From: Hymenobacter sp. APR13
Lineage (GTDB): Bacteria > Bacteroidota > Bacteroidia > Cytophagales > Hymenobacteraceae
Direction of reading: 5' to 3'
Length of the DNA: 64,000 bases
Assembly (NCBI RefSeq): GCF_000737515.1
Contig: NZ_CP006587.1
Span: 2,661,001-2,725,000, forward strand
Shown here: one piece after another, positions 1,100 through 48,297 of the stretch
Numbering within the stretch: the stretch's first letter is position 1
Layout: every line of letters begins with the position of its first letter
Translations under genes and position numbers: made by a program
The notes under the pieces: model-generated
Seen by the model: only the letters and a program-made list of their open reading frames with translations
The model's database searches: none
What the model was told of the DNA's origin: nothing

Positions 1100-1522
1100 A
1101 TGCCTACCATCAACCAGTTAGTACGAAAAGGCCGCGAGAAGCTGACGACGAAGTCGAAGTCGCCGGCTCTTGACTCGTGCCCGCAGCGCCGTGGCGTTTG
1201 CACCCGTGTGTACACCACCACGCCTAAGAAGCCGAACTCGGCTATGCGTAAAGTGGCCCGTGTGCGCCTCACCAACGGCAAAGAAGTTAACGCCTACATT
1301 CCCGGTGAAGGCCACAACCTGCAGGAGCACAGCATCGTGCTGATTCGTGGTGGTCGTGTGAAAGACCTTCCCGGTGTGCGTTACCACATCATCCGTGGTG
1401 CTCTTGACACCGCTGGTGTTAACGGCCGTACGCAGCGCCGCTCGAAGTACGGTGCCAAGCGTCCGAAGCCAGGCCAGGCTGCTCCAGCCGGCAAAGGCGC
1501 TCCTGCTAAGAAGAAAAAGTAA
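1100..1522 (+). CDS. rpsL: 30S ribosomal protein S12
   Basis: S12 (140 residues) shapes the decoding centre of the small subunit. The family blocks are intact: [11 protein letters not shown] at the N-terminus, [22 protein letters not shown], and [17 protein letters not shown]. Both lysines whose substitution gives streptomycin resistance in other bacteria (in PKKPNSA and GRVKDLPG) are wild type, so no rpsL-based resistance is expected. A Lys/Ala/Pro tail of about 15 residues extends the C-terminus. It is the first gene of the str group and has a consensus promoter upstream. Confidence 0.98.
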
Positions 1523-8123: not shown

Positions 8124-8993
8124 ATGGGACAGAAAGTAAATCCGGTTGGCTTCCGTCTGGGCGTCATTAAAGGATGGGACTCGAACTGGTACGGCGGCAA
8201 GGACTTTGCCGACAAACTGGTGGAGGACGAAAAAATCCGCAAATACATCATGGCTCGTATCCCGAAAGGTGGCATTAGCCGCATCGTGATTGAGCGTACG
8301 CTGAAGCGCATCACCATTACCATCAACACGGCTCGTCCGGGTGTGGTAATCGGTAAGGGTGGCGCTGAAGTGGATAAGATCAAAGACGAACTGAAGCAGA
8401 TCACCAGCAAGGACGTTCAGATCAACATCTTCGAAATTAAGCGTCCGGAACTCGACGCCAAGCTGGTAGGTGAGAGCATTGCTCAGCAGCTGCAGGCTCG
8501 TATCTCGTTCCGCCGTGCCATGAAGATGAGCATTCAGGCTGCTATCCGTGTTGGTGCCGAAGGCATCAAGATCCAGTGCGGTGGCCGTCTGGGCGGTGCT
8601 GAAATTGCCCGTTCCGAGCAGTACAAAGAGGGCCGTACGCCGCTGCACACGCTGCGCGCCGATATCGACTACGCTTTGTCGGAAGCTCAGACCGTGTATG
8701 GCAAAATCGGTATCAAGGTATGGATCATGCGTGGTGAAGTGTTCGGCAAGCCCGACCTGTCGCCTAACCAGGTTCCTGCCAACCAAGGCAACGACACCCG
8801 TGGTGGCGACCGTGGCCCACGCGGCGAGCGTGGCGACCGTGGTGGTGACCGTGGCCCGCGCCGCGACCGTAACGACCGTGGTGGTGACAACCGTGGCGGT
8901 GCAGGTGCCGCCGGTGGTGGCCAGCGCCGTGGCGGTGGTGCCCCAGGTGGTGCCAACCGTGGTGGTCAGGGCAGTGGCGCTCCGCGTCGCTAG
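8124..8993 (+). CDS. rpsC: 30S ribosomal protein S3 with Gly/Arg/Asp-rich C-terminal tail
   Basis: S3 lies at the mRNA entry channel and, with S4 and S5, takes part in mRNA unwinding. The KH-domain signature ([18 protein letters not shown], near residue 73) and the C-terminal block [18 protein letters not shown] with [13 protein letters not shown] are intact. From about residue 215 to 289 the protein carries an extra low-complexity tail of RGG- and RGD-like repeats rich in Gly, Arg, Asp and Asn, so it is far longer than E. coli S3 (233 residues). The tail is encoded by highly repetitive GGTGGC/CGTGGT-type codons. Confidence 0.97.
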
Positions 8994-12971: not shown

Positions 12972-13577
12972 ATGGCAGAATTTAACAACGGCCCTCGTGG
13001 TGGTAGCGGCGATAACCGCGGCGGTGGCAATGACCGTCGTGGTGGTGGCAATGACCGTCGCGGCAATGACCGGAAAGAAGAGTCTCGCACCGGCGATTCC
13101 GATCTGAAAGAAAAAGTGGTTGCTATCAACCGCGTAGCCAAAGTAGTGAAAGGCGGTCGTCGCTTCAGCTTCTCGGCCATCGTGGTAGTAGGTGACGGCA
13201 ACGGCACCGTAGGCTACGGCCTCGGCAAAGCCAACGAAGTAACCGACGCCATTGCCAAAGGCATTGACGACGCGAAGAAAAACCTGGTAAAGGTGCCGCT
13301 GTACAAGCACACCGTTCCCCACATCATGGAAGGCAAATACTCGGGCGGCTTCGTGCTGGTTCAGCCAGCTGCCGCTGGTACGGGTGTAATTGCTGGTGGT
13401 GCTATGCGTGCCGTGTTCGAAAGCGCCGGCATCAAAGACGTACTCGCCAAGTCGAAAGGTTCGTCGAACCCCCACAACGTGGTTAAGGCTACCTTCGACG
13501 CCCTGCTGAAAATGCGCGACCCTATGCAGATTGCACAGGCTCGTGGCATCACCCTCGCTCAAGTTTTTAACGGTTAA
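12972..13577 (+). CDS. rpsE: 30S ribosomal protein S5 with Gly/Arg/Asn-rich N-terminal extension
   Basis: S5 lies at the mRNA entry channel beside S3 and S4. The dsRNA-binding-like core starts near residue 44 ([20 protein letters not shown]) and continues with [18 protein letters not shown] and [20 protein letters not shown]; the C-terminal [13 protein letters not shown] is normal. Residues 1-42 are an additional low-complexity segment of RGG-, NDRR- and GGGN-type repeats, the same composition as the tail of S3. Total length is 201 residues against about 166 in E. coli. Confidence 0.97.
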
Positions 13578-17768: not shown

Positions 17769-18373
17769 ATGGCACGTTATACTGGTCCTAAAACCAAGAT
17801 TGCCCGTCGCTTTAATGAGCCGATCTTCGGCCCAAGCAAGGCACTCACCAAGAAAGCATACCCTCCCGGCCAGCATGGTCGTGGCCGTCGTAAGAAGCAG
17901 AGCGAGTACGCTGTCCAGCTGATGGAGAAGCAGAAAGTGAAGTACATGTACGGCGTACTGGAAAAGCAGTTCGAGAACCTGTTCCACAAAGCGGCTACGC
18001 TGCCCGGCATCACCGGTGACAACCTGCTGGCTCTGCTGGAATCGCGCCTCGACAACACGGTTTACCGTCTGGGCATTGCTCCTACGCGCCGTGCTGCTCG
18101 TCAGCTCGTTCTGCACAAGCACATCACCGTTAACGGTGACGTAGTAAACATTGCTTCGTACAAACTCCGCGCTGGTGACGTTGTTGCCGTACGTGAGAAG
18201 TCGAAGTCGCTGGAAGCTATTACCACGAGCCTGAGCGCCCGCAACGCGCGTGCTTTCTCGTGGCTGGAGTGGGACGGCAAAGACATGGTGGGCAAGTTCC
18301 TCAACGCCCCGCCCGTGAGCTGATACCGGAGAAGATCACCGAGCAGCTCATCGTCGAACTGTACTCGAAGTAA
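17769..18373 (+). CDS. rpsD: 30S ribosomal protein S4, frameshifted near the 3' end
   Basis: S4 nucleates 30S assembly and lines the mRNA entry channel. Residues 1-182 are normal ([20 protein letters not shown], the S4 RNA-binding domain with [20 protein letters not shown] and [17 protein letters not shown]). The reading frame then runs into TGA at 18321 after only 184 residues. The missing conserved end ([18 protein letters not shown]) is encoded intact in another frame at 18317-18370 with TAA at 18371. Restoring one base in the C-run at 18312-18314 gives a 201-residue protein, the normal Bacteroidota length. The lesion is either a sequencing error in a homopolymer, a real truncation, or, less likely, recoding. 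Confidence 0.93.
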
Positions 18374-28780: not shown

Positions 28781-28796
28781 TTTCTTCCTTATCCCT

Positions 28797-28858
28797 TCAC
28801 CCCATCACCCCATCACCCCATCACCCCATCACTCCATCACCTCATCACCTCATCACCA
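28797..28858 (+). repeat. 9-bp tandem repeat array
   Basis: About seven copies of a 9-bp unit CATCACCCC that drifts to CATCACCTC at its right end. It abuts the anmK stop codon. Read on the other strand the unit is GAGGTGATG, the same core as the array at 48212-48297. Confidence 0.9.
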
Positions 28859-48211: not shown

Positions 48212-48297
48212 GGGTAATGAGGTGATGAAGTGAATCGTGATGAGGTGATAGGGTGAATCGTGATGAGGTGATGGAGTGAATCGTGATGAGGTGATGA
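48212..48297 (+). repeat. 23-bp tandem repeat array
   Basis: Three units with period 23 (GAATCG at 48232, 48255 and 48278), each containing GTGATGAGGTGAT, plus a partial unit at each end. It lies just upstream of the methyltransferase promoter. Confidence 0.9.

Follow-up and report, generated by a model that had tools for sequence, protein, structure and literature searches.

A one-base frameshift ahead of the last codons of rpsD in Hymenobacter sp. APR13 is very probably a residual assembly error

Introduction

Escherichia coli ram strains with a C-terminal truncation of ribosomal protein S4 are viable, with a doubling time about 30% longer (PMC7987974), and the lesion reported for one such strain is a 5-nt deletion covering nt 528–532 of rpsD (PMC13335486). 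Small losses of a different origin are known from genome assemblies: in a survey of long-read assemblies, most deletion errors followed homopolymers of four to five bases (PMC12007338).

We analyzed a stretch of 64,000 nucleotides of the Hymenobacter sp. APR13 genome (contig NZ_CP006587.1, positions 2,661,001 to 2,725,000), referred to below as the window and numbered from its first letter, in which the rpsD reading frame is broken close to its end. The genome containing the window is labeled G000, and its two nearest relatives are G012 and G084, both with 97% DNA identity to G000 and with identical S4 residues 1–181.

Results

The rpsD gene lies downstream of genes that we take to be rpsM and rpsK and upstream of presumptive rpoA and rplQ, going by the protein sequences. 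The open reading frame (ORF) list and the sequence agree with the preliminary description that the rpsD frame stops at 18321 after 184 residues, closed by a TGA at 18321–18323. The conserved C-terminal end of S4 is absent from this frame and is coded directly behind it in frame −1, up to a TAA at 18371–18373. That the C-terminus is intact there had also been claimed, and it is borne out both by the sequence and by a tblastn search with the intact S4 of G012, which returned two pieces in differing frames, covering residues 1–181 and 175–201. The frameshifted protein has lost the final 20 residues and gained three others (PVS), and it carries the Ribosomal_S4 domain (PF00163, 104.4 bits, cut-off 23) and the S4 domain (PF01479, 67.9 bits, cut-off 22.8). 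The features at the locus are the following.

17769..18323, + strand: rpsD frame of 184 codons and TGA, ending in PVS unlike its relatives (ORF list; Pfam domains; sole S4 match in the genome)
18307..18310, + strand: run of four Cs, five in G084 and G012, at the site of the frame change (aligned loci)
18311..18373, + strand: out-of-frame rpsD remainder, coding for the relatives' last 20 S4 residues and TAA (sequence; 0 of 63 bases differ from G012 and 1 of 63 from G084)

A search of the whole genome (5,010,594 bases in four contigs) for the S4 family gave a single match, so nothing else was found as a replacement, and we reject a second S4 gene supplying the function as far as this search goes. 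Plasmid records held no match at near identity.

The alignment with the nearest relatives places the change precisely. In G012 and G084 the site reads as five Cs, a G, and CCC, translated as NAPARE, while the window has four Cs at 18307–18310, the same G, and then CCC at 18312–18314, the length of this last run being unchanged in all three genomes. The preliminary description had proposed that one C was missing from the run at 18312–18314; the loss of one base and the argument from the frame hold, whereas the run was misplaced, the loss falling at 18307–18310. In the 538 bases upstream of the C run, 18 positions differ between the window and G012, 17 of these being third codon positions; the comparison with G084 gives 15 differences, of which 14 are at third positions. 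For the next three relatives, the tail behind the run shows 8, 8, and 9 differences in 63 bases, against 21, 24, and 32 in the 538 bases upstream. Judged by these counts, the tail appears undecayed in comparison with the two nearest relatives, a weak test, as only about two changes would be expected. An undecayed tail would be expected under a sequence error and equally under a very recent mutation.

The break is confined to this genome among the sequences compared. We read 111 rpsD loci in all, of which a blastn script placed 110: 108 had 201 codons and two had 184, both of the latter being the window's own gene, fetched twice. The locus missed by the script (L063) had 201 codons by an earlier script. 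A comparison with related strains had been suggested as a check, and it found 201 codons in 109 of 109 other loci, a set in which the same species is possibly present twice, once per collection. In a search across the order with a 201-residue S4, 278 of 291 genomes gave matches; among the 150 of these 278 that were listed, 149 covered residues 1–201 by hand count, the exception being G000 itself with residues 1–182. A truncated relative was thus found neither in the 109 loci nor, G000 aside, among the 150 order-wide matches listed. No S4 of 184 residues was seen among the 120 proteins listed of 7908 in a clustered database, where a short version may hide within a cluster.

To place the break among others in the same assembly, we set 1.2 Mb of G000 against an equal length of G012. 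A test of 728 ORFs of G012 (832,737 bases) in G000 flagged 12 whose frame is shifted through to the last codon, of which five were kept; the reverse test of 726 G000 ORFs (823,332 bases) in G012 flagged four and kept none. Each of the five is a single open frame in G012 and G084 and is in two pieces in G000. They are rpsD and the following four genes, all outside the window and all split in G000 by a single base.

G000:C1:2790286-2792924: HrpB-type helicase
G000:C1:2856667-2857891: GWxTD-domain protein
G000:C1:2776844-2777283 and 2635076-2635599: two ORFs that match no Pfam family

The last two are ORFs of 147 and 175 codons; in the 175-codon ORF, the first piece in G000 also contains a stop. 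The helicase is broken at a C-rich site resembling that of rpsD. The four breaks besides rpsD may be real pseudogenes. Five against none corresponds to 1 in 32 in a one-sided sign test, a weak result from small numbers, with the rows kept by judgement after inspection. Seven of the 12 G000 rows were dropped: in five, the change lies within the opening 20% of the reading frame; in one (563 codons), it falls at 23%, directly ahead of an ATG that is probably the true start; and in one (753 codons), no single event can be made out at that position. The same criteria removed all four rows found in the reverse direction, three for a change within the opening 14% and one for want of a single event. 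Further disturbed segments, 15 in one direction and 19 in the other, were kept outside the count.

A three-way survey of 400 kb flagged, in its two tests, four and three rows in G000, none in G012, and four and two in G084, those of G084 being mostly variable or doubtful ORFs. A 153-codon ORF of G000 was flagged in one of the two tests and left uncounted, and the HrpB-type helicase went unflagged, as indels close to the break distinguish its relatives.

We found no genome-wide shortening of homopolymers: the run-length spectra of G000 and G012 almost coincide. This excludes a systematic error, and errors, if such they are, would be sparse. A C-rich decamer is not depleted in G000 (10 and 5 copies on the two strands, against 7 and 7 in G012), and the octamer CCCCGCCC is not enriched within the window (9 copies, 6.8 expected). 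A literature search for nanopore-sequenced Hymenobacter genomes yielded nothing relevant.

Other repeats were noticed in passing. The window has short tandem arrays at 28793–28857, with 8.1 copies of the 8-base unit CCCATCAC, and at 48217–48297, with 3.5 copies of a 23-base unit. Outside the window, a gene at G000:C1:2532029-2534916, which looks like uvrA by its sequence, contains short AC/GT-rich units in a repeat-like insert that keeps the frame and is absent from the near relative.

Within the ribosomal cluster, we looked for changes that might compensate for a shortened S4. The check covered S12 and S5.

1100..1522, + strand: rpsL (S12), no sign of compensation (all 140 residues shared with G012 and G084)
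12972..13577, + strand: rpsE (S5), partner of the S4 C-terminus, no compensating change in comparison with G012 (201 of 201 residues identical; one gapped residue in G084)

With S12 the same in all three genomes and S5 unchanged from G012, neither protein looks compensated. EF-G shows 14 and 12 differences from the two relatives. Eleven proteins of the cluster, from S12 to L17, have uninterrupted frames, with identities of 97 to 100% to those of the two relatives. In the same cluster, S3 (window 8124–8993) ends in a long extension rich in glycine and arginine, over tandem-repeat DNA, with gaps of five and three residues in comparison with two near relatives.

Discussion

We consider it very probable, judging from the sequence comparisons, that a residual homopolymer indel of one base in the assembly accounts for the frameshift in rpsD. 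The five-C run just ahead of the last 20 codons would have been called as four, and the living strain would most likely make a normal 201-residue S4; we infer that the base was lost in the reads or the assembly and not in the cell. A homopolymer sequencing error was also the first choice of the preliminary description, and it emerges as the best-supported explanation: the one-C difference, the intact frame in all 109 other loci, the undecayed tail, and the slightly higher number of single-base splits than in one relative all appear to point to it. The preference for runs of four to five bases seen in the survey would fit the C run of rpsD if G000 was assembled from such reads (PMC12007338).

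The alternatives take the DNA as correct. Full-length S4 could come from a −1 ribosomal slip at the C-rich codons, and a slip of CCG (18309–18311) onto CCC (18308–18310) would indeed give the NAPARE of the relatives; a downstream hairpin can also be drawn, with a minimum free energy of −29.1 kcal/mol and a z score of −1.64. This fold is nevertheless ordinary, 15 of 200 shuffled sequences folding at least as well, and the site is without the X XXY YYZ motif, the classical slippery heptamer. The other 109 loci are all read in one frame of 201 codons, none with a frame change that would need recoding. On these three grounds we reject recoding, which we regard as very unlikely. The particular slip on CCC put forward in the preliminary description finds no support either, as the tRNA would have to re-pair with GCC.

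A real and very recent frameshift in the only rpsD detected in this free-living strain, leaving S4 without its last 20 normal residues and S12 unchanged, would make a natural ram-like ribosome, and it is what the sequence says at face value. We think this unlikely. The truncated S4 would be predicted to loosen the S4–S5 interface and so to give error-prone (ram-like) ribosomes that still support growth, an outcome to which we likewise give little credence. Residue 181 of the window's S4 aligns with residue 186 of a 206-residue uS4 chain that we take to be that of E. coli; the lesion would fall near a known ram site and so need not be lethal. The loss would be close to that of the 5-nt deletion and a little shorter (PMC13335486), and the viability of C-terminally truncated ram strains speaks in its favor (PMC7987974). 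A real truncation is opposed by the lack of any truncated gene among the other 109 loci, by the tail without decay, by S12 and S5, where no compensating change was seen (for S12 in both relatives, for S5 in G012), and by the other single-base breaks in the same assembly, which make an error the cheaper account.

If the truncation were real, a wild bacterium would carry a ram-like decoding lesion and would show life at low decoding accuracy outside the laboratory. If it is an artifact, as is probable, the case serves only as a warning that a single-base break in a core gene of one assembly needs confirmation from reads before it is given a biological meaning. With an assembly error as the preferred reading, the finding is an ordinary one unless reads show otherwise.

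Loss of the S4 C-terminus, the feature by which the locus can be compared with ram alleles, is present in the assembled sequence. The comparison with ram made in the preliminary description is sound as a what-if: in E. coli, as in the assembly here, a small deletion near the end of rpsD removes the S4 C-terminus (PMC13335486, PMC7987974). The E. coli alleles belong to laboratory strains with measured phenotypes, whereas here a single assembly has a C run that differs by one base, and the loss is somewhat shorter. In comparison with the long-read homopolymer errors of the survey, the breaks here are few and are seen at the level of the assembly; the likeness is that a one-base loss in a short run splits a conserved gene (PMC12007338).
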